DNA of 48,885 nucleotides from a virus: positions 1-48,885 of IMG/VR virus record IMGVR_UViG_3300019776_000145; one strand, 5' to 3'. The translations under genes and the position numbers were made by a program. The notes below the pieces were generated by a model. The model was not told the DNA's origin, ran no database searches, and worked only from the letters and a program-made list of their open reading frames with translations. Below, one piece after another: positions 25,786-39,977 of the stretch (the first letter of the stretch is position 1; every line of letters begins with the position of its first letter).

Positions 25786-26049
25786 ATGCATTCACGCCTG
25801 AATTCAGCACTTGTGCGGAGGATTACGTCCATTTACTCAAGTGGACGTGATTCTAAAACAGTAGATCGTATCTGCATAAGTGTTTGCTCTTCAGGTGTTG
25901 AGATTAATTGGACAGACGATTCTTTTTGGACACTTTCTAATTTCAGAAAGACTAAGCAAGGGGAGTCTTTTTGGATGAACGTCTGTACAAGAAACTTCCA
26001 ATCCCTGAGGGATGATGCGTTATGGAGGTATTATGCACCCAAGACTTAA
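25786..26049 (+). CDS. Tandem family protein 1 (RLN...QG..FW), 87 aa
   Basis: First of ten related small proteins. It begins MHSRLN and has KQGESFWMNV near residue 65, matching the family pattern RLN at the start and PQG-x-x-FW in the C-terminal third, but with Lys-Gln-Gly instead of Pro-Gln-Gly. It ends WRYYAPKT, and the DNA for YAPKT plus stop also encodes MHPRLN of the next gene in another frame. No known domain. Confidence 0.72.
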   Translation: MHSRLNSALVRRITSIYSSGRDSKTVDRICISVCSSGVEINWTDDSFWTLSNFRKTKQGESFWMNVCTRNFQSLRDDALWRYYAPKT

Positions 26050-26296
26050 TTGTATTGTGGCGCAGAAATACTCCGATTTATGCCGATATCCTCCTCTCAT
26101 TACAGAGAGATTGGCAATCAGTATGCAATATGCAGAGAGATTTTGTCATGTTCAATGGGATGGAGAATACATTACAACAGCAGTAGATCATCTTGTCTCT
26201 CCTCAAGGAGAGAAATTCTGGTTGAACATTGCAAGAGGTCATTTTGAGTTATCTCTTGGTGAACCAAATTGGAGAAGATATGTACCCACGCCTTAA
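26033..26296 (+). CDS. Tandem family protein 2, 87 aa
   Basis: Begins MHPRLNCIVAQKYSD and carries SPQGEKFWLNIARGHFE. Start chosen for RBS GGAGG at 26024-26028. The 17-nt overlap with gene 1 is repeated exactly in length at the next three junctions, evidence for tandem duplication of a gene together with its overlap. It is most like protein 3 (shared LCRYPPL/LDKYPIL, TERLA/TDRLA, SMQYA/SMSYA). Confidence 0.75.
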   Translation: MHPRLNCIVAQKYSDLCRYPPLITERLAISMQYAERFCHVQWDGEYITTAVDHLVSPQGEKFWLNIARGHFELSLGEPNWRRYVPTP

Positions 26297-26543
26297 TTGT
26301 GTTGCGGTAAAGATGTATTCTAATTTGGATAAATACCCAATACTCCACACAGATAGATTGGCTGTTAGCATGAGTTATGCATCAACAGTTTGCAGGGTAT
26401 CTTGGAATGAGCGCCATGTCCTGAATGCTGTTGAGTTCTTAAAGTCCCCTCAAGGGATGGGATTCTGGGAAGATATTTCAAGCGGTTATTATAATAGATG
26501 TTTTTCTGATGAGAATTGGGGAAAATATGCACCCAAGATTTAA
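26280..26543 (+). CDS. Tandem family protein 3, 87 aa
   Basis: Begins MYPRLNCVAVKMYSN and contains SPQGMGFWEDISSGYY. It has the same length as proteins 1 and 2 and shares most landmarks with protein 2, so this pair is probably the most recent duplication. It overlaps protein 4 by 17 nt. Confidence 0.75.
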   Translation: MYPRLNCVAVKMYSNLDKYPILHTDRLAVSMSYASTVCRVSWNERHVLNAVEFLKSPQGMGFWEDISSGYYNRCFSDENWGKYAPKI

Positions 26544-26826
26544 TAGTAATGCGGTTAGGCATGACCTGATACGGTCACGTCCCCTCCATTTGAAAGATGT
26601 GGAATTTGTTGTTATTCAGGCAGAGATTGCTTGGAATAGTGAAGGTACACGCTCCTCTGCAAAGAGTATGGGGAGAAATTTCTCCAAGCCTCTTGACGTA
26701 GATGCCCTCTTTCAGTGGAGATCAACTCCCCAAGGACAGGGATTCTGGGAACAGGTTAATGCTCGTTATATAAAAACTGCCCGTTCTCTTTTGAATAAGG
26801 AGGAGGAACATGCATCCTCGCCTTAA
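26527..26826 (+). CDS. Tandem family protein 4, 99 aa
   Basis: Begins MHPRFNSNAVRHD, with TPQGQGFWEQVNARYI at about 76-91. It is longer than the others because of an insertion of about 10 residues before the PQG motif. It shares the segment DVEFVVIQAEIAWN with protein 5 (DFEFVSIEIERAWN). Confidence 0.73.
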   Translation: MHPRFNSNAVRHDLIRSRPLHLKDVEFVVIQAEIAWNSEGTRSSAKSMGRNFSKPLDVDALFQWRSTPQGQGFWEQVNARYIKTARSLLNKEEEHASSP

Positions 26827-27079
26827 TCTTAGGGTGTTGAAACCTTTTACCCATCCGATCGAAAAGTCCAATCTTCCAGACTTTGAATTTGTATCTATAG
26901 AGATAGAACGTGCTTGGAATCACCCTGATATAGATTCTAGACATAAACGATTAGGTGTATCTGTTGCATCTATTTATTCTATTAGCGAGCTATTTGTCTG
27001 GGATTCCTCCCCACAAGGGGGAAATTTCTGGGCAAGGATTTCTGGATGGGAGATTGACAGGGCAAAGGAGCTGCTATGA
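26810..27079 (+). CDS. Tandem family protein 5, 89 aa
   Basis: RBS GGAGGA at 26801-26807. Begins MHPRLNLRVLKPF; has SSPQGGNFWARISGWEID. It is the last member with the M-x-P-R-L-N start and 17-nt upstream overlap; it joins protein 6 through a 4-nt ATGA overlap. Confidence 0.75.
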   Translation: MHPRLNLRVLKPFTHPIEKSNLPDFEFVSIEIERAWNHPDIDSRHKRLGVSVASIYSISELFVWDSSPQGGNFWARISGWEIDRAKELL

Positions 27080-27324
27080 GTTTAAATAAACGCGTTGTTA
27101 AAACCACTGCCTCTCGTTGCAATCTCTCTACCATAGAGACAGACAGGCTCGCGCAGCATGTTGACAAAGCCCTTTCAAGCCCTGATATTGAAATGATTGA
27201 TGGGTATAAAAAGACTTGGTATATCCAAGATTATTTTGTCTGGAAAAAAACCCCTCAAGGGTGGGATTTCTGGATGCAAATATCGGAAGACAAGGCAGCC
27301 AAACTCTTGGAGGCTCCGTTATGA
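27076..27324 (+). CDS. Tandem family protein 6, 82 aa
   Basis: Begins MSLNKRVVKTTASRCNLS and so lacks the RLN start, but keeps IETDRLAQHV and TPQGWDFWMQIS. It links the two subfamilies. Both junctions are 4-nt ATGA overlaps. Confidence 0.72.
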   Translation: MSLNKRVVKTTASRCNLSTIETDRLAQHVDKALSSPDIEMIDGYKKTWYIQDYFVWKKTPQGWDFWMQISEDKAAKLLEAPL

Positions 27325-27596
27325 GGCCTGTTGTAAGACTCAATTCCAAGTTGTTCAGACATTTGTGTAATGACAAGGGATATGGGGTTGCTGTGGCAAA
27401 TAAACTGGCAATTCATTATATGTTGTCAGGTGTTTTAAGGTATGGGGGAAGTGGTATGTGGAGGATCAGGAGCAGGAAAATCCTTGACCAAGCCGCTCAA
27501 GGAGAAGGTTTCTTTGATGCACGTCCTATTGATCGGATAAACTATCCATATCCCCCTTTCACTGATATTGTATTAGATGGAGATTGGAATGGATAG
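27321..27596 (+). CDS. Tandem family protein 7, 91 aa
   Basis: Begins MRPVVRLNSKLFRHL and carries AAQGEGFFDARP, a weak form of the PQG motif, then a YPYPP segment. It opens the second subfamily, which starts M-x-x-P-x-x-R-L-N and ends in a Trp-containing segment before the next start. Overlap with protein 8 is 8 nt. Confidence 0.7.
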   Translation: MRPVVRLNSKLFRHLCNDKGYGVAVANKLAIHYMLSGVLRYGGSGMWRIRSRKILDQAAQGEGFFDARPIDRINYPYPPFTDIVLDGDWNG

Positions 27597-27858
27597 GCCT
27601 TTGTTACGTCTGAATTATCCGGCTTTTAATGGTGTTATTAAACGCTCACCTGATGACACTGATTGGAGCTTGAGGAGGGCGGAGAGGGCCATAATTCATA
27701 TCCTGAAAACTGGTCAATGTCATAAAAGATATGGGTGGATTTCAGCAGGAGATAGACCAACTGACTTCCCACAAGGTACTCACCACTTCAGTAATTGGCA
27801 GAATCAAGACGCTCCCTATCCTGACAATCCAATTGCTTGGGAGGTAGCTTATGGATAG
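27589..27858 (+). CDS. Tandem family protein 8, 89 aa
   Basis: Begins MDRPLLRLNYPAF; has the segment SLRRAERAIIHILKTG and FPQGTHHFSNWQNQDAPYPD. It ends IAWEVAYG, whose last codons contain the ATG of the next gene (8-nt overlap). Nearly collinear with protein 9. Confidence 0.75.
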   Translation: MDRPLLRLNYPAFNGVIKRSPDDTDWSLRRAERAIIHILKTGQCHKRYGWISAGDRPTDFPQGTHHFSNWQNQDAPYPDNPIAWEVAYG

Positions 27859-28117
27859 ACCACTGTTTCGATTAAATCACCCTATGTTCCGTCCTTTTCT
27901 TAGAACCCATCACGGTAATGGTTACACCCTTCGGAGGGGAGAGCGGTTCATAATACACATGCTGAGAACAGGGTATGCCTATAGAGATGGTGCGATTTTA
28001 TATGCATCAAGGATTAACCAGATTCCTCCTCAAGGAAAAAATCATTTTTCTTATTGGGAAAATCAGGACAAGTCCTATCCAGATACCAGTATAGCTTGGG
28101 AGGTGGCATATGAATAA
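27851..28117 (+). CDS. Tandem family protein 9, 88 aa
   Basis: Begins MDRPLFRLNHPMF; has TLRRGERFIIHMLRTGYA and PPQGKNHFSYWENQDKSYPD, ending IAWEVAYE. About half the residues match protein 8 by eye. 8-nt overlap at both ends. Confidence 0.75.
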   Translation: MDRPLFRLNHPMFRPFLRTHHGNGYTLRRGERFIIHMLRTGYAYRDGAILYASRINQIPPQGKNHFSYWENQDKSYPDTSIAWEVAYE

Positions 28118-28379
28118 GCCTCTGTTAAGACTCAACCATAGGTCTATTAAGGATAAAATGATTTATGGAGAAGGATACCAAAACTATACCCTTCATAAGG
28201 GAGAACGCCGTGTAATCCATATCCTTTTGAGTGGAGTAGCTCTTAATAGAAATGGAGAGATTCGTGTAGGGTCATATGATTCCAAGCAGCCTTCTGGATT
28301 TTGGAGGGACAGTGATGCAAATAAATTCCTTCAACCATACCCAGAAGGTGAAATCCCTTGGAGCATAGCATATGGGTAA
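28110..28379 (+). CDS. Tandem family protein 10, 89 aa
   Basis: Begins MNKPLLRLNHRSI; has TLHKGERRVIHILLSGVALN and QPSGFWRDSDANKF, ending IPWSIAYG. PQG has become QPSG. 8-nt overlap at both ends; it closes the array. Confidence 0.75.
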   Translation: MNKPLLRLNHRSIKDKMIYGEGYQNYTLHKGERRVIHILLSGVALNRNGEIRVGSYDSKQPSGFWRDSDANKFLQPYPEGEIPWSIAYG

Positions 28380-28577: not shown

Positions 28578-29810
28578 ATGGTAAAGCTGGTTGTCTCTAA
28601 AATTGCAACAAAATCCCTGACCATCGGTCAAATCTGCATCGTCACTGCTGAGTTCCCTGAGATCGGCAAGATTCAAATCAACAATAAGAAATATCAGTAT
28701 CGTGCTGTCAATTTTGACCCGTACATCATCCCTGAAGGTGAAGAAGTCATCATCCTCGGTGAAGACAAATACTTCGAGGAAGAAGCCGGACAGCGTAAGT
28801 TCCTCACAAAAGCTGGTACAATCATCCAGCATTATGTAACAGAGATCGAGAACGATCCTGTCTACCAAGTGCGTCAGGGCGGCACATACAAGGATATCTG
28901 GTTCTATTCTCAGGACAATGTTTTCCCAACAAGTCTGGTGGAATTGTATGAAGAAGTGTTTGGCGAAAGCCCTATTCCAAAAGCCCCTGTAGTTGATGAA
29001 GAAGCCATCATCGCTAAGGAACGTGCCGCATTCTGCGTAGATAATTATTCCTACGATTCAGCAGCCAGTTATCTGATTGTTGACCGTGACGGCGACCATT
29101 CCAAATACTACAATCGTGTATGCCACGGCCCTGTAAACAGCCCTCAAGGGTCTGAGCCGATTGCCGTCATCTACAATCTACAGCATGACTGGAAGCGCTC
29201 CAATTCCAAGAATCGCCAGCACCTCCACGCATTCTGGGACTACATCCTCAATCGCAGCCCTTGGGCGTATGGCTTCCTTGATAAGGATGCTAAGGCTAAT
29301 ATGGCTATTGGTTTGCGTGTCAACATTGACATTAACCCAATGGAAGTGAGATCGGTGTGCATGGCTCTGCGTTCTGGCTGGGAATCCAATTATGCCCAGC
29401 GTTGGGTGGAGTATGTTGCTGAAGGCTTTGATGAAGATTTCTCATTCCTCCTGTGCATGGCTACCACCAATCTGAACAACTACAGTGGTTTCCACGGTGG
29501 TCACCTCCCGTTCGGCGGTAGTGTATATGCAGAACGTATTGCTAAGTTCTTTGCTCTGGGTCATGAAGCATTCCCAAATCAGATCAAGAACAATCACTAC
29601 CGTAAGCAAGCAAATGCTGTTGTGTCAGCAGACGGTATGATGAATTTAATTGTAGTAAAAGACACCACTCCTCTCAGCACTTTCTTCCGCAGCTTTGCTG
29701 TAGAATCGAAAGGCTCTGGCCTGTCTGCTGGTAGTTTGCATTGTAGCAAAGAAATACTTCTTAAAACACAAGAAGCGTTCAACAATCTGGTCAACTCGTT
29801 TAAGGCGTAA
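28578..29810 (+). CDS. Unknown protein heading the amidoligase cassette, 410 aa
   Basis: Not recognised. The N-terminal 130 residues are beta-rich and acidic (GEEVIILGEDKYFEEE); the rest is mixed, with many aromatic residues and motifs such as NLNNYSGFHGGHLPFGGS near 290-307. It is coupled by 2 nt to the class I amidotransferase, with the same GC-richer codons (Arg mostly CGT/CGC), unlike the AGA/AGG-rich array before it. It is therefore probably part of the cassette, perhaps its substrate or a partner enzyme; this is inference. Confidence 0.72.
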   Translation: MVKLVVSKIATKSLTIGQICIVTAEFPEIGKIQINNKKYQYRAVNFDPYIIPEGEEVIILGEDKYFEEEAGQRKFLTKAGTIIQHYVTEIENDPVYQVRQGGTYKDIWFYSQDNVFPTSLVELYEEVFGESPIPKAPVVDEEAIIAKERAAFCVDNYSYDSAASYLIVDRDGDHSKYYNRVCHGPVNSPQGSEPIAVIYNLQHDWKRSNSKNRQHLHAFWDYILNRSPWAYGFLDKDAKANMAIGLRVNIDINPMEVRSVCMALRSGWESNYAQRWVEYVAEGFDEDFSFLLCMATTNLNNYSGFHGGHLPFGGSVYAERIAKFFALGHEAFPNQIKNNHYRKQANAVVSADGMMNLIVVKDTTPLSTFFRSFAVESKGSGLSAGSLHCSKEILLKTQEAFNNLVNSFKA

Positions 29811-29812
29811 TT

Positions 29813-30433
29813 ATGAAAAATACAGTTTATGTTTGCCATGACTTCATGGGTGTAGCAGCAATGTTTCGTGGTATGGGTTATGAAGTTATCCATAACCTCA
29901 ACGAACTCCCTGACTTCGTAGCATTCACAGGTGGAGCAGATATCTCTCCAAGTCTGTATGGCCATGAGCGCCATCCTGAAACATACACCAGCGAAGGTCG
30001 TGAGAAGATTGAGCTGGAAGTGTATGAATTCTGCCGTGAGCATGACATTCCTATGGTGGGTATCTGCCGTGGAGCTCAACTGCTGAATTCCTTATCCGGC
30101 GGTGAAATGTATCAACACGTCACACATCATCAAGGATCACATGACATGGTTGATGTGTTCACAGGTGAAACAATTGTAACAAGCAGCATCCACCATCAGA
30201 TGATGAAGCCTCATCCAACTAAGTCAATCTTGGTTGCCAAGTCTCATCAGAAAGGTCGTCGTGAATGGATGGAAGGTCATGTCATTCGCTCTGAAATTGC
30301 TGAATATGACCCAGAAGTTGTGTTCTATCCAGAGACAAAATCTCTGTGTGTGCAGGGTCATCCAGAAATTTCTTCTGTTGAATACGTGGCGTTCCGCCGC
30401 TACTTCGGTGAGCTGCTGAACCGTTATCTGTAA
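29813..30433 (+). CDS. Class I glutamine amidotransferase / gamma-glutamyl hydrolase-like protein, 206 aa
   Basis: Flavodoxin-like GATase fold of the C26 (PuuD-like) branch. FTGGADISPSLYG at 38-50 is the oxyanion/substrate strand, the nucleophile elbow VGICRGAQ places Cys85, and GHPE gives His183 and Glu185 to complete the triad. C26 members remove gamma-glutamyl groups; GATases deliver ammonia from glutamine. Its place beside amidoligases suggests either removal of a gamma-glutamyl group or editing of a product made by them. Confidence 0.85.
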   Translation: MKNTVYVCHDFMGVAAMFRGMGYEVIHNLNELPDFVAFTGGADISPSLYGHERHPETYTSEGREKIELEVYEFCREHDIPMVGICRGAQLLNSLSGGEMYQHVTHHQGSHDMVDVFTGETIVTSSIHHQMMKPHPTKSILVAKSHQKGRREWMEGHVIRSEIAEYDPEVVFYPETKSLCVQGHPEISSVEYVAFRRYFGELLNRYL

Positions 30434-30446
30434 TCATCTTCTGGTA

Positions 30447-30470
30447 AGAAGCTCTCAACAGAGGGCTTCT
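30447..30470 (+). promoter_or_regulatory. Intercistronic hairpin
   Basis: A 10-bp stem (30447-30456 with 30461-30470, one G-U pair) with tetraloop AACA, between the two amidotransferase genes. No T-run follows, so it is more likely a stability or processing element than a terminator. Confidence 0.6.
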
Positions 30471-30500
30471 GCTATCATAAATCATTTCTAAAGGAAGCGT

Positions 30501-31853
30501 ATGTGTGGAATAGTTGGTTTCTTCGGAGACTCTGATGCAGCAAAATTCAAGGCATTTGAGCAGCTCTTGTATATCAATGCCTTACGTGGCATGGATAGTA
30601 CAGGTGTTCTCACTGTCAATACCCAGAATCAGGTGAAGACAGCACGTGCTGTAGGTGAACCTACTAACCTGCTGGTATCTCGTGAATTCAAGTCTGCAAC
30701 AGAATTCTCAGGCTTGATTAAAGTGGCTGTAGGTCACAATCGTTTTGGCACAGGTGGTGGTATCTCTAAAGAGACAGCCCATCCGTTTGAATTTGATAAC
30801 ATCGTAGGTGTTCATAACGGTGTTATTGGTGCTAAATATCGCTTTGACAAGCATACAGCATTCAAGGTAGACAGTGAAGCCATGTATTCCCACATGAACA
30901 CTCATGGTGTTGATGCTACAATCAATCTGCTGGGAGCTGTAACCAACAGTTATTCTCTGGTATTCTGGGACAAGGCTGCAAACACGTTGAACTTCCTTCG
31001 CAACAGTGAGCGCCCAATGTGCTTTGCTGTATGTGATGACAATAAGACAGTGTTCTTTGCATCGGAAGGGTGGATGTTGACTGGCGTATTAGGTCGCAAT
31101 AACATCAAGCATGGTGAAATCGTATCAACCGAAGCACACCTGCTGTACACGTTTGCAAATATTACCCAGACGGCAGTGAGCAAGCCACTCGTCCGTAGTG
31201 TGGAACCCCCAAAGTTCTCGACGCAGGTGATTCATACGCTTGGGATGAGTGGTACACGGACTACCAAGGACAACGCCGCCGCTTCTACCCCGGATTCTAA
31301 AAAAGGGGGTACTTCCTCAAAAAAGGACGTAATCGTAAGAGGTCTAGAGTCTGACCAGCATATTATTGATTGTAAAGTTATTACTGAATTTACAATTGAA
31401 GGTGCTTTTGTAGACCTCAACGGTGGGAGTTACGTCAGATGTACAGCCACCAATAATTCAGTTGATGGGCGTAAAACATATGCCCCATTCCGCCTGTATT
31501 ATCGCAAGGAAGATGAGTGGGTATCTGAAGCTATTGGTGAAAAGATTTTCTCCAAGGTAAGCAGCTTCACTCGTAACATTGATGAAGGTGTGTATTACAA
31601 GGTAAGTCCTTGGGATGTTGTATCTGAAGTTGACCAATCGACTATTGTCGAGGAAGAAGAACCCCTTGTTGCTGTTGGAGAGGGAGGGCAAGTAATCGAA
31701 ATTGCCAAATGGCGTCGTAAGTATCAAAGCTGTTGCTGGTGCAGCACAACACAGCTAGACCCTGATGACTGTCAGTTTGTCAAGGGTGAAGTTTTGTGTG
31801 GCCCTTGTAGCCGTGATGACCGCGTTATCAGTCAAATGAACGAATATTGTTAA
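30501..31853 (+). CDS. Class II glutamine amidotransferase with C-terminal Cys cluster, 450 aa
   Basis: Ntn-hydrolase glutaminase domain of the GlmS/PurF type: MCGIVGFFGD puts the catalytic Cys at position 2, followed by the usual RGMDSTG, GHNRFGTGG and GVHNGVI motifs within the first 120 residues. It would release ammonia from glutamine for a partner ligase. After the glutaminase domain a Ser/Thr/Lys-rich linker (about 255-285) leads to a second, beta-rich domain. The C-terminus has a zinc-ribbon-like set of Cys (CCWCS, DDCQF, LCGPC). RBS AAGG lies before the start. No synthase domain follows, so the acceptor enzyme must be another cassette protein. Confidence 0.87.
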   Translation: MCGIVGFFGDSDAAKFKAFEQLLYINALRGMDSTGVLTVNTQNQVKTARAVGEPTNLLVSREFKSATEFSGLIKVAVGHNRFGTGGGISKETAHPFEFDNIVGVHNGVIGAKYRFDKHTAFKVDSEAMYSHMNTHGVDATINLLGAVTNSYSLVFWDKAANTLNFLRNSERPMCFAVCDDNKTVFFASEGWMLTGVLGRNNIKHGEIVSTEAHLLYTFANITQTAVSKPLVRSVEPPKFSTQVIHTLGMSGTRTTKDNAAASTPDSKKGGTSSKKDVIVRGLESDQHIIDCKVITEFTIEGAFVDLNGGSYVRCTATNNSVDGRKTYAPFRLYYRKEDEWVSEAIGEKIFSKVSSFTRNIDEGVYYKVSPWDVVSEVDQSTIVEEEEPLVAVGEGGQVIEIAKWRRKYQSCCWCSTTQLDPDDCQFVKGEVLCGPCSRDDRVISQMNEYC

Positions 31854-31874
31854 TTAATTTATTGGAGAATTAAA

Positions 31875-32669
31875 ATGGAATTATTAGTAGGTTGTGACCC
31901 AGAGATTTTTGTACGTCAAGATAATGTATTCAAGTCAGCATTTGGCTTGATTACTGGTGACAAGAAGAACCCGACAAAGGTTCCTAATGGTGCTGTTCAA
32001 GTTGATGGCATGGCATTGGAATTCAACATTGACCCTGCCAGTAGTGAACAACAGTTCATCCACAATGTCACTGACGTATTTGCACAGATTCGTGCGATGG
32101 TTCCTGATTATGAAGTGGTTGCTGTGCCAGTGGCAGACTTCTCCCCAGAATATCTGAAGACACAGCCTGCTGCTGCACTGGAATTGGGATGTGATCCTGA
32201 TTACAATGCATGGACTTCCTCAGTCAATCCACGTCCAGACGGCAATCGCCCTATGCGTACAGCATCAGGTCATGTTCATTTAGGCTGGACAAAAGATCAG
32301 AACATTGAAGACTACAACCATGTTGCCACCTGTGAACGTGTTGTACGTCAGCTTGATTTCTTCCTCGGACTGGTCTCTCTGGTGTATGATGGTGACACAC
32401 GCCGCCGCAGTATGTATGGCAATGCTGGTGCATATCGCCCTAAATCATATGGCGTTGAGTATCGCACATTGTCAAATATGTGGCTCAACTCTGAAGAACT
32501 GATTGGATGGGTGTATCGTGCTACTCAAGAAGGTGTCAATCAACTCCTTGCAGGTAATGTTTTGCAAGACAAGTATGGTGATATTCAGGACATTATCAAG
32601 AACAGTGATGTGTCTGAAGCCCGTAAAATCATTTTGGCAGAAAAGATCGAGGTTCCACGTGGCTATTGA
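31875..32669 (+). CDS. Amidoligase, phiEco32-type COOH-NH2 ligase type 2, 264 aa
   Basis: Glutamine-synthetase-like fold. Opening VGCDPEIFV (5-13), then GAVQVDGMALEFNIDPA (about 39-55), SGHVHLGW (about 131-138) and YGVEYRTLSNMW fit the family known as phage phiEco32-like COOH.NH2 ligase type 2. Such enzymes are predicted to activate a carboxylate with ATP and join it to an amine. The acidic and His residues in the quoted motifs would hold metal and ATP. Substrate unknown. Confidence 0.85.
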   Translation: MELLVGCDPEIFVRQDNVFKSAFGLITGDKKNPTKVPNGAVQVDGMALEFNIDPASSEQQFIHNVTDVFAQIRAMVPDYEVVAVPVADFSPEYLKTQPAAALELGCDPDYNAWTSSVNPRPDGNRPMRTASGHVHLGWTKDQNIEDYNHVATCERVVRQLDFFLGLVSLVYDGDTRRRSMYGNAGAYRPKSYGVEYRTLSNMWLNSEELIGWVYRATQEGVNQLLAGNVLQDKYGDIQDIIKNSDVSEARKIILAEKIEVPRGY

Positions 32670-33240
32670 TATGAGCTTGTCTGACGCTAAACGCGATTAT
32701 GTCGGCGTCGTAATGATGCACAAAGGTGTTCCTGTATTAATCTCAGGTATTGAGGATGACTTTCAGGTCACTATCGTGTCATTACGTAGTAATAAGTCTA
32801 AGATTGTGAGTAAGGAGGTTTTGTTTGCGATGACCCCTCCTCCTCGCTTAGGCATGGTGAATACACCTGATCGTAATGCAGTGTTTGTTGTACGACTTCC
32901 TCATCGTCGTTACCAGATGGGTGTGTCAAGTAACAATCTCCTTTCAATCCAGATAGGTAATTCAGACATGCCGCGTAGCGTTGGTTCGTCTGGTTTCTAT
33001 CGTACCAAGGAATTTGCAGATACAATCACTGGCACTTACCCCAAGTTCTATGCAGCTCTCCTCATGGCACGTGAGAAGAACATTATTGTTGCATTCGACC
33101 GCCAGTTTGCCCTGTCTTCTTCCACGCTGTATTACAAAGACAAGGCTGTTGGACGTATCAACAACACTGTGCAAAGCTTTTCGGATGTACTGTTTCACGA
33201 CAAGTACAAATTCACTAAGAAACTCTATTTAGGTGCATGA
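32659..33240 (+). CDS. Unknown cassette protein, 193 aa
   Basis: Start set at GTG 32659 because GAGG (32649-32652) lies 6 nt upstream; ATG 32671, which follows the preceding stop, has no RBS at a usable distance. The protein is basic, mixed alpha/beta, with no known motif. It sits between the two amidoligases with overlaps on both sides, so it is likely a required part of the pathway. Confidence 0.68.
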   Translation: MAIDMSLSDAKRDYVGVVMMHKGVPVLISGIEDDFQVTIVSLRSNKSKIVSKEVLFAMTPPPRLGMVNTPDRNAVFVVRLPHRRYQMGVSSNNLLSIQIGNSDMPRSVGSSGFYRTKEFADTITGTYPKFYAALLMAREKNIIVAFDRQFALSSSTLYYKDKAVGRINNTVQSFSDVLFHDKYKFTKKLYLGA

Positions 33241-34316
33241 TGAAAAACATCGCAATGGTCATCCGCAAGCCTGTCACAGCTGGCGACATTGGTATTGAAA
33301 TTGAAGTTGAGGGTACACGTATCTCAGCTTATGAATCAGAGGTATGGAAAACTGTACCAGATGGTTCATTACGTGGGGAAAGTAATGAGTATGTATTCCA
33401 ACAGCCTCTCCCTATCGGTAAAGTAGATGAGGCACTGAAAGAGCTGGACAGTGTATTTAAGAAGAATCGTTCCACTCTTACATTCAGCTTCCGTACATCT
33501 GTGCATGTCCACCTGAATGTCAGTGATTTGAAGCCAGTACAATACCTGAACACCTTGTACACAGCATTGCTGCTGGAACAGCCAATGGTGAATTACTGTG
33601 GTGATACACGGATTAACAATCGTTTCTGCCTGCGTACATCTGATGCAGAGGGTATTGTTCCAATCTTGGCCTCAGTGTTCCGTAACATCCGTAACATCAA
33701 TCATCTGGATGGTAATCAGATTCGTTATTCTGCAATTAACATCCATGCCACACGTAAGTTTGGCAGTATTGAGTTCCGTGGTATGCGTGGCACTATGGAC
33801 TTGGATGTACTGAATAACTGGTGTAATGCAATCTATGCTATTAAGCAATTTGCATTGAAGTTTCCTAATCCACTAGCTATTCAGGATTTCTATGAATCTT
33901 TGCCATCTGGATATGCATTCTTGGAAGCTGTATTCGGTGTTGGGCTGGCAAAAGTATTTGACTATGACCTACTCAACTATGAAATGAGTAGCTGTCTGTC
34001 ATTAACAATGTCTCTTCCTCACGAAACCCAAGAGGAGGCAGAAGAGCTGGAAAAGGAGGAGTATGAAGAGGAGGTACGCGCCCCGTCTCCGCCCTCTCCA
34101 CTTCCTCCTCTTACTGCGACACCAACTCCTCGTGTAAGAATGCCTCGTACCCCTACGACGGTAACTCTCGATGAGATGACTGCTTTTATTCTGGAACCAG
34201 AGACGGAGCAACGTAGGCCGCCTATGTCATTGAATGAGTTACGAGCAATGGCTGGACTCCCTCCACTAACTCCAAATCAAGGAACTTCTAATGAAGATCA
34301 AAATTTACCCTTATAA
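33237..34316 (+). CDS. Amidoligase (Amidoligase_2-like), 359 aa
   Basis: Second glutamine-synthetase-fold ligase. GIEIEVEGTRI (19-29) gives the first acidic metal ligands, VPDGSLRGESNEYVF (about 40-54) the ATP-site loop, TSVHVHLNVSD (about 87-97) and SIEFRGMRGTMD (about 173-184) the remaining core motifs. The C-terminal 90 residues are an unusual acidic (EEAEELEKEEYEEE) and then Pro/Thr-rich (PSPPSPLPPLTATPTP) low-complexity tail. The start overlaps the previous stop (ATGATG); ATG 33240 is equally possible. Confidence 0.85.
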   Translation: MMKNIAMVIRKPVTAGDIGIEIEVEGTRISAYESEVWKTVPDGSLRGESNEYVFQQPLPIGKVDEALKELDSVFKKNRSTLTFSFRTSVHVHLNVSDLKPVQYLNTLYTALLLEQPMVNYCGDTRINNRFCLRTSDAEGIVPILASVFRNIRNINHLDGNQIRYSAINIHATRKFGSIEFRGMRGTMDLDVLNNWCNAIYAIKQFALKFPNPLAIQDFYESLPSGYAFLEAVFGVGLAKVFDYDLLNYEMSSCLSLTMSLPHETQEEAEELEKEEYEEEVRAPSPPSPLPPLTATPTPRVRMPRTPTTVTLDEMTAFILEPETEQRRPPMSLNELRAMAGLPPLTPNQGTSNEDQNLPL

Positions 34317-35070
34317 GAATGGCTCTGCTTCTGCGAAAGCATTGGCAGATGCCCTCTCTTGTAGAGTAGTTAAGCGTGAAGGCAAGGAAGTAATTGCAGA
34401 TGCTATCATAAATTGGGGGTCTTCCTCAGTTGTACGTAGCACACGTTCAAAGGTGTTCTTAAATCTTCCTGAGAATATTGGGAAGGCAGCAAACAAACTT
34501 CATACGTTTGGAGTATTGTCTGATGTAAAAGACACAATTCTTCCAATAAAACTGCCTGTGTACACAACACAACCAGACGAGGAGTTTATCAATTCCTCTT
34601 TCGAGAGAGGTGGTATTGTAGTAAGGCATATTCTGACCGGTCATTCTGGAAATGGCATTCAAATGGTTGACAATCCAGATCAACTGCCTTTACCCAAGGC
34701 TCCGCTGTATGTCCAGTATATCAAGCGTCGAGAAGAATATCGTGTCCATGTCTTCAAGGGACAGGCTTTCTTTGTTCAACGTAAAGCACGTAAGATGGAT
34801 GTTCCAGACGAACGTGTCAACTGGAAGATCAGAAACCTAGCTGGTGGATTCATCTATGCATCAGAAGGGGTAACACTACCTCCAGAAGTTTTAGAAGCCT
34901 GTGGTAAGATTATGGAGCTTCTGGGGGTAGATTTTGGAGCAATTGATCTGTTGTATTCCTCTTCCAAAGAGTATTATTTCTTGGAAGTGAACACTGCTCC
35001 GGGACTCGCTGGCACAACATTGGAAAAATATTCTGAGAAATTTACAGAATATTTGAATCATTTTCAGTAA
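34291..35070 (+). CDS. ATP-grasp ligase, RimK-like, 259 aa
   Basis: Carboxylate-amine ligase of the ATP-grasp fold. Visible are the glycine-rich lid loop HILTGHSGNGIQMV (about 113-126), the nucleotide strand YVQYIKRREEYRVHVF, and the Mg-binding end DFGAIDLLYSS...YFLEVNTAPGL with Asp, Glu and Asn in order. Such enzymes join an amino acid to a peptide or protein carboxylate through an acyl phosphate. The gene overlaps the amidoligase by 26 nt and ends the cassette. Confidence 0.87.
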   Translation: MKIKIYPYKNGSASAKALADALSCRVVKREGKEVIADAIINWGSSSVVRSTRSKVFLNLPENIGKAANKLHTFGVLSDVKDTILPIKLPVYTTQPDEEFINSSFERGGIVVRHILTGHSGNGIQMVDNPDQLPLPKAPLYVQYIKRREEYRVHVFKGQAFFVQRKARKMDVPDERVNWKIRNLAGGFIYASEGVTLPPEVLEACGKIMELLGVDFGAIDLLYSSSKEYYFLEVNTAPGLAGTTLEKYSEKFTEYLNHFQ

Positions 35071-39378: not shown

Positions 39379-39977
39379 AAGTAACATTGTGACTTTGCAT
39401 CGGGAGGTGCATCGAATAACACTTTTAACTGCTGGAAAGCTAAGGCGAGAGCTATGCCGATCAGCAGCCAAGATGGGAAATAAATGATTAATTGGAATGG
39501 TTATTTTGTTGATAACAATGGAGTAATTTACAATAAAGATGGTAGTATTAAATCTTTAAAAGTAAATACAAAAGGTTATTATTTTACAAATTTCTATTAT
39601 GGCGGAAAATCACATACACACTCAGCTCATCGAGTTGTGGCAGAAGCTATACATGGGGAATGCCCAGATGGGTATGAAGTAGATCATGTTGATAATAATA
39701 GACAAAACAACCATCCAGATAATCTTAGGTATTTGACAAAATCTCAAAACAATCAGAAAGCTTATGATTCAGGTAATCGCAAGTTTCTCTTTGGACAGTC
39801 AAATCCTAATAGTATTTCCCGTAAGGTTCAGAGACTATCCCTTAGGGGAGTAGGGCAGACAAGCTAATGGTCGCTCGAAATGGAGTGGGTCTAGAACAGA
39901 CCGTGATATAGTCCGACCCATGTAGGAAACTATGTGGCAGCGAGAGCGGGGGTATCTTGCAAATATCCCGAACGATG
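39379..39977 (+). ncRNA. Group I intron in the DNA polymerase gene
   Basis: 599 nt between CAT|AAG and ATG|GAT. The 5' exon ends in T and the intron ends in G, as group I chemistry needs, and the join restores the frame. The P7 element GTTCAGAGACTA (39826-39837) pairs with ATAGTC (39908-39913), a form typical of T4 td-like introns. A core-like segment (39428-39477) precedes an HNH frame. The site separates His576 from Asp577-Glu578 of the catalytic HDE motif. Confidence 0.88.
39484..39867 (+). CDS. HNH homing endonuclease inside the intron, 127 aa
   Basis: Contains a short N-terminal NUMOD4-like stretch (WNGYFVDNNGVIYNKDGS) and an HNH core HRVVAEAIHG, EVDHVDNNRQNNHPDNLRYL, then TKSQNNQKA, the common intron-associated HNH type. 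It probably cuts intron-less polymerase genes at this site and so spreads the intron. Its last codons overlap the 3' half of the intron core (P7), so translation could hinder splicing. Confidence 0.87.
   Translation: MINWNGYFVDNNGVIYNKDGSIKSLKVNTKGYYFTNFYYGGKSHTHSAHRVVAEAIHGECPDGYEVDHVDNNRQNNHPDNLRYLTKSQNNQKAYDSGNRKFLFGQSNPNSISRKVQRLSLRGVGQTS

Follow-up and report, generated by a model that had tools for sequence, protein, structure and literature searches.

Results

A run of seven coupled genes

In the present study we have analysed a cassette of seven genes which lies at positions 28578-35070 of the window, that is, of the whole 48,885 bases of virus record IMGVR_UViG_3300019776_000145, and which encodes ligases and glutamine amidotransferases (GATs) of a putative pathway for the joining and trimming of amide bonds of glutamate type. 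The genes, lettered A to G in their order along the window, form a single co-directional run on the + strand of about 6 kb within a 50-kb genome, and the gaps from A to G are 2, 67, 21, 1, -4 and -26 bases. A first-pass annotation, made on the letters of this DNA alone, had described seven coupled genes, and all of the open reading frames (ORFs) were found where it had placed them, with a correction to E, whose start is most likely the ATG at 32671, 32503 being merely a mechanical ORF start. Four of the seven proteins (B, C, D and F) pass curated Pfam cut-offs. A and E are given an assignment by neither Pfam nor NCBIfam, in agreement with the two proteins that had been left without a name.

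Ligases D, F and G

Gene D (31875..32669, + strand, 264 amino acids) encodes a COOH-NH2 ligase type 2 (PF14395; 34.8 bits against a cut-off of 25, with PHROG 3815 matched at 2e-87), and gene F (33237..34316, + strand, 359 amino acids) an Amidoligase_2 protein (PF12224; 29.0 bits against a cut-off of 22, with PHROG 7469 matched at 4e-58). The amidoligase nature of these two genes, on which the first-pass annotation had staked its reading, was in this way recovered above the Pfam gathering cut-offs. The glutamine-synthetase fold of D and F rests on their Pfam families and the literature; profile searches by sequence found a related solved structure for neither protein, and the two profiles show no significant likeness to each other (hhalign probability 3.5%).

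Gene G (34291..35070, + strand, 259 amino acids) encodes a RimK/MptN-like ATP-grasp ligase. Alone it stays below the Pfam RimK cut-off (18.6 versus 21) and matches PHROG 2599 at 2e-76, and a 32-member profile reaches RimK structures at 5e-14 versus 2e-5 for D-Ala ligases, which bears out the ATP-grasp ligase predicted earlier. Against the RimK alpha-L-glutamate ligase model TIGR00768 it scores 28.7 bits, below the curated cut-off of 143.4. By sequence, G is nearer to RimK/MptN alpha-L-glutamate ligases than to D-Ala ligases.

In alignments of up to 55 homologues per gene the invariant residues are D8, E10, K30, D44, E49, R128, H133, H135, R177, R188, E195 and R197 in D, E21, E23, E51, H90, H92, E179 and R181 in F, and K69, E149, R151, K165, D219, E232 and N234 in G.

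Amidotransferase-type enzymes B and C

Gene B (29813..30433, + strand, 206 amino acids) encodes a class I GAT-like peptidase C26 of the gamma-glutamyl hydrolase type, with 75 bits against a cut-off of 20.5 for Peptidase_C26 (PF07722; 9.9e-21) and a triad formed by C85, H183 and E185 that is invariant among the aligned homologues. The nearest NCBIfam models, none of them matched above its cut-off, are gamma-glutamyl-CDP-amidate hydrolase, for 25 of 29 members, and PuuD, for 19 of 29; for the former (NF045546) B itself reaches 39.6 bits, under the curated 250. In the structure database the best match is Lin1909, followed by a probable glutamine amidotransferase and PuuD. Gamma-glutamyl hydrolases are thus the enzymes that B most resembles.

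Gene C (30501..31853, + strand, 450 amino acids) encodes a class II GAT (Ntn hydrolase) with a C-terminal zinc ribbon, and matches GATase_6 with 37.4 bits against a cut-off of 27 (3.1e-9). Residues C2, R81, N106 and G107 align with C1, R73, N98 and G99 of GlmS, and D124 is invariant in 54 homologues; C thus retains the N-terminal Cys nucleophile and the glutamine-binding and oxyanion residues of the class. The pair of class I (gamma-glutamyl-hydrolase-like) and class II GATs noticed at first reading is in this way upheld by family models. The ribbon cysteines C411, C414, C433 and C436 are present in about 90% of the 54 homologues. We considered the ribbon as a LysW-like carrier and rejected it, since a conserved C-terminal Glu is lacking and the ribbon is absent in some lineages.

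The catalytic residues of the cassette enzymes are intact and conserved in the homologue alignments, as the first-pass annotation had read them, and the pathway is probably active. The maintenance of active-site residues across very diverse phages indicates that they are under selection.

Co-occurrence and distribution of the cassette

A total of 282 D loci were gathered and clustered at 80% identity, and the 102 flanked by 6 kb or more on each side were kept; as the sample was selected by D, all co-occurrence counts are conditional on D. C, F and G were each found in 101 of these 102 non-redundant loci, and the 631 best-match cassette genes all share one strand within their loci, so that the co-occurrence in other phages expected from the first reading is amply borne out. 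Sequence comparison shows D, F, G, C and B, together with the conserved accessory protein E, as a single unit, in which a gamma-glutamyl cyclotransferase (GGCT) may replace B in related phages. The order of the genes differs among lineages, as might be expected if metabolic genes without kinship or a shared pathway had come together by chance; the near-perfect co-occurrence over the 102 loci, and the loss of the block described below, make such an assembly scarcely credible.

E (32671..33240, + strand, 189 amino acids), with an SH3-like N-terminal part, is present in 93 of the 102 loci as one family which includes LUZ24 gp17 and UFV-P2 gp22, and is consequently regarded as a core part of the cassette; it was not found in crAss-like and some further distant loci. 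R75, R79 and G161 are near-invariant. The model of E (pLDDT 92.4) gave nothing significant against the PDB, with weak SH3/Tudor-like matches only, and in the viral library it matched H9D1D2 of CW02 (E 9e-14) and, weakly, a RIO-1 protein. A (28578..29810, + strand, 410 amino acids) is fast-evolving and consists of an N-terminal SH3-like part, with one or more SH3-like modules, and an alpha/beta domain without a known fold; C182, R265, E269 and H309 are near-invariant in its C-terminal domain. Its family occurs in 61 of the 102 loci, at the 5' end of the cassette, in a single copy or in two copies in tandem; relatives in Grimontviridae occur as tandem pairs. SH3-like domains were the sole PDB matches of the A model (pLDDT 74), none of them significant.

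D relatives are encoded by 317 phage-collection records and at least 581 matches were found in IMG/VR, compared with 16 relatives in 84,980 bacterial and archaeal species genomes, every one of them on contigs of metagenome-assembled genomes. These bacterial homologues were set aside as a source of context, as such contigs held no informative operon. The cassette is essentially phage-borne. One distant D gene (L070) stands alone, with no cassette around it. In the Vibrio phages VPMCC5 and 1.253.O (Zobellviridae), whose polymerases are about 50% identical to that of the window, none of A to G was found within 29.8 kb around the polymerase, and other genes (coiled-coil or membrane) precede the helicase; the cassette is lost as a block in these two phages.

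An extra or relocated ATP-grasp ORF (about 230-260 amino acids) lies between B and C in six loci (L002, L005, L009, L011, L016 and L021), some of which also retain the usual G after F.

Alternation of C26 and GGCT

C26 and/or GGCT are present in 98 of the 102 loci: C26 only in 62, GGCT only in 26, both in 10 and neither in 4. The odds ratio is 0.025, with a raw p of 3e-12 in which kinship is ignored. Over the tree of D at least 5 changes are counted for the C26 label and at least 12 for the GGCT label, and in independent pairs the two never shift the same way. In Vibrio phage 1.293.O a GGCT (PF06094, 7.5e-23) lies between A and C, which is the slot of B in the window. C26 and GGCT have unrelated folds and only the bond that they cleave, a gamma-glutamyl amide, in common. 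The cleavage of gamma-glutamyl bonds by both families makes that bond the likely shared step. The genome of Rhizobium phage RHph_I3_11 holds two class II GAT genes, one C26 and a distant GGCT.

The same enzymes could be read as a pathway for a soluble metabolite, in which a small glutathione-like gamma-glutamyl peptide, or an amino acid with a protected amine, is made or turned over and the nitrogen, redox or amino-acid pools are altered. A ligase with an ATP-grasp enzyme and GGCT recalls glutathione synthesis and breakdown, and the gamma-glutamyl hydrolases matched by B belong to known pathways of protection and deprotection; glutathione synthase models, on the other hand, recognise no more than 1 of the 32 G members, and that weakly, and the conservation of E and A is left unexplained. 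We consider this reading rather unlikely.

Genome setting

The cassette precedes the primase-helicase in 53 of the 102 loci, and the additional genes often seen beside it belong to replication or are small ORFs of variable kind. The DNA polymerase of the window is nearest to a Zobellviridae phage polymerase (64% identity). Besides the cassette, the early region encodes a Toprim-domain primase/helicase-like protein, a sigma factor, DNA polymerase A, an exonuclease, a dGTP diphosphohydrolase, ThyX and a ribonucleotide reductase; the endolysin of the window is a Phage_lysozyme (PF00959). Promoter-like sites were no more numerous in a promoter and terminator scan than in shuffles, and the PADLOC models of anti-phage defence gave zero matches for all seven cassette proteins.

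The frequent position ahead of the primase-helicase would suit a DNA or nucleotide modification, in which an amino-acid-like group on the phage bases shields the genome, an output that had been proposed at first reading and that is now disfavoured. The DNA of phage tf, whose genes are named as similar in the annotation of the UFV-P2 cassette, is cleaved by five restriction enzymes, RsaI, HpaI, EcoRV, SmaI and HaeIII (PMC3517423), and that of the LUZ24-like phage Delta by BamHI (PMC8540360); a base modification that would protect against restriction in general is therefore unlikely in these two phages. ThyX and ribonucleotide reductase of the window are plain. The genes identified around the cassette include no enzyme of base modification, and the scan of the early genes revealed neither a hydroxymethylase nor a base kinase nor a glycosyltransferase; the authors of BASEL point instead to a dCTP deaminase and a nucleotidyltransferase. 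This modification thus appears very improbable.

Several further features were observed in and around the cassette. The B-C gap (30434-30500), its only long one, contains a 10-base inverted repeat, AGAAGCTCTC...GAGGGCTTCT, with one mismatch and without a T run, which is possibly an RNA hairpin. An HNH_3 endonuclease ORF (39484-39867) lies immediately after the 577-amino-acid ORF of DNA polymerase A; the polymerases of relatives are longer (about 625-650 amino acids), which together suggests a homing endonuclease or intron splitting the polymerase gene. Upstream of the cassette about 10 tandem small ORFs of 82-99 amino acids (25786-28379) were seen, most of which begin M-x-P-R-L-N or similarly; six have a PQGxxFW-like motif and two match PHROGs 16354 and 10949 weakly. 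Ahead of the cassette, Pseudomonas phage K4 has comparable 'TPEGxxYW' ORFs, as do a few further loci. These paralogues were rejected as a peptide substrate, the exact motif being found in only one other of the first 55 loci; the looser TPEGxxYW relative (a 12-ORF cluster) is present in 5 of 102, so that they do not form part of the cassette. In Citrobacter phage CVT22 (5023-14270) about 14 small ORFs, several of them SH3-like ('FxxGDxV'), lie between nearly all of the cassette genes, and almost all of them terminate in ...LENE. These '...SLENE' C-termini were considered as a peptide tag and rejected, since they probably represent an in-frame translation of the ribosome-binding site that serves the following gene. 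In the LUZ24 and phiEco32 types the small ORFs located between C and G were likewise dismissed as carrier proteins, as they have no feature in common with the window.

Discussion

The cassette type is already known from hundreds of phages and, as far as we could find, its product has never been shown. A seven-gene 'peptidoglycan modification cassette' has been described in RIO-1-like podoviruses and listed also for phiEco32, PA11, tf, LUZ24, PaP3 and CW02 (PMC5498523, where Hardies 2013 and Iyer are cited). For a LUZ24-like phage a 'putative peptidoglycan modification module' is reported, with the creation of endolysin target sites as an alternative idea (PMC11945000). The option of a change in peptidoglycan against superinfection is thus a published conjecture. 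Furthermore, the annotations of TC6 and UFV-P2 agree with the cassette (PMC6209634, PMC3890496), and an amidoligase and a GATase whose function is yet to be explored are reported in OM43 phages (PMC10580990). The first-pass annotation was right about the kinship with phiEco32-like phages and about the lack of a proven product, and had missed the published name and peptidoglycan hypothesis.

We propose, with a probability of about 0.5, that the cassette represents a phage-dedicated glutamyl-relay pathway whose target is a host acceptor and whose action falls early in infection. D and/or F would form in an ATP-dependent manner an amide, probably gamma-glutamyl, on an amine of the acceptor, and G may attach one more glutamate or other amino acid, working as RimK does. 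C would provide ammonia from glutamine for the amidation of a free carboxylate, and B, or GGCT elsewhere, would remove or trim the gamma-glutamyl group; E and A may serve as a scaffold for the enzymes or retain the acceptor. The addition of glutamate and the removal of a gamma-glutamyl group in the course of one pathway are suggested by the alternation of C26 and GGCT together with the likenesses of B and G. Pathways of this add-and-remove type are known in PuuA-PuuD, in BtrJ-BtrG of butirosin synthesis and in the Cj1417 step of the Campylobacter capsule phosphoramidate. The early action is proposed because the predicted peptidoglycan modification genes of PSA-HP1 are 'expressed immediately', ahead of the takeover genes (PMC7082346).

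As the likeliest single acceptor we tentatively put forward, at well short of an even chance, a peptidoglycan stem-peptide precursor, in which case the new wall would resist competing phages. Such an acceptor fits the GAT-dependent amidation of stem peptides in other bacteria, as described for MurT/GatD (PMC3267633), and the early expression is consistent with it. Several points weigh against this proposal. Genes for wall precursors do not recur in the vicinity of the cassette among the clusters observed in the 102 loci, and G is nearer to protein or cofactor glutamate ligases than to D-Ala ligases. The Phage_lysozyme endolysin is a glycosidase to which the stem peptides make no difference, and this speaks against the version with endolysin target sites. 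As for the relay itself, the alternation of C26 and GGCT is strongly clustered on the D tree, where the independent pairs are too few for significance, and in the literature we found no enzyme activity, substrate, product or functional experiment.

A host protein is nearly as likely an acceptor as the peptidoglycan precursor, although doubtful in itself. Protein tagging as such, in which a single protein or a handful of proteins of the host or the phage, acting for example in the ribosome, transcription or defence, would receive a glutamyl tag or some other peptide from G and the amidoligases so that the host is redirected early, gains weight over the first reading by virtue of the RimK-like G and is a possible, still questionable, explanation. 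Among solved structures G is nearest to the family of RimK, the glutamate ligase of ribosomal S6, and ATP-grasp maturases of ribosomal peptides are found among the NCBIfam matches of G, yet every one of its family matches lies below the curated cut-off. A transfer of few residues suits a short infection, and phage R2K ATP-grasp ligases have been proposed to modify specific host proteins (PMC4431377); however, no conserved small substrate protein accompanies the cassette in the 102 loci, and a RimK-like system needs neither a glutaminase nor two amidoligases.

It is also conceivable, albeit distinctly unlikely, that the cassette serves counter-defence or takeover through covalent glutamylation of a host macromolecule, for instance a nucleotide or a defence protein, whether of restriction or of another kind. 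Gordonclarkvirinae are reported to be strongly restriction-resistant by a mechanism that is not known (PMC11990801), and the genome of their member SkaterBoy Bas90 carries the cassette; the resistance of this group, Bas90 included, leaves room for a counter-defence role by a route other than DNA modification. If true, such glutamylation would explain the restriction resistance of the cassette-bearing Gordonclarkvirinae and would constitute a covalent modification pathway restricted to phages.

Returning to the glutamyl relay, the alternation of C26 and GGCT, the RimK-like G and the core status of E narrow the question to the identity of the acceptor on which a gamma-glutamyl group is placed, and from which it is removed, in the early phase of infection. 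What is new here is a testable gamma-glutamyl relay chemistry and the finding that E belongs to the core of the cassette.

The closest published system is the cassette of the RIO-1-like phage PSA-HP1 (PMC5498523), which has seven genes as in the window, including a gamma-glutamyl amidoligase, a second amidoligase, an ATP-grasp and a glutamine amidotransferase, and which sits, like that of the window, among replication and transcription genes. The window likewise holds a COOH-NH2 ligase, a second amidoligase, an ATP-grasp and a class II GAT co-located; its enzyme for cleaving gamma-glutamyl bonds is the C26 hydrolase at 29813-30433, without GGCT, whereas PSA-HP1 lists a gamma-glutamyl cyclotransferase. 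Among Paundecimvirus and Citrovirus (Zobellviridae), Pseudomonas phage K4, Citrobacter phage CVT22 and Klebsiella phage KpnP_VR7901 have the order A-B-C-D-E-F-G and two GATs as in the window; CVT22 differs in the extra small ORFs between its genes, and its D is 53% identical to that of the window. The LUZ24-like and phiEco32-like phages LUZ24, UFV-P2 and SkaterBoy Bas90 have the families of C, D, E, F and G in common with the window, but in these types the order is D-E-F-C-G-GGCT, with GGCT in place of C26, and the two upstream genes of LUZ24 have no detectable likeness to A. At the level of single enzymes, PuuD and gamma-glutamyl-CDP-amidate hydrolase have the catalytic triad and the C26 core in common with B, which differs in lying below their equivalog cut-offs and in that the partner pathway genes were not seen. 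RimK/MptN alpha-L-glutamate ligases, the best profile match of G, have the ATP-grasp fold and the catalytic residues in common with it, whereas G and its relatives, as far as shown, lie under the curated family cut-offs.

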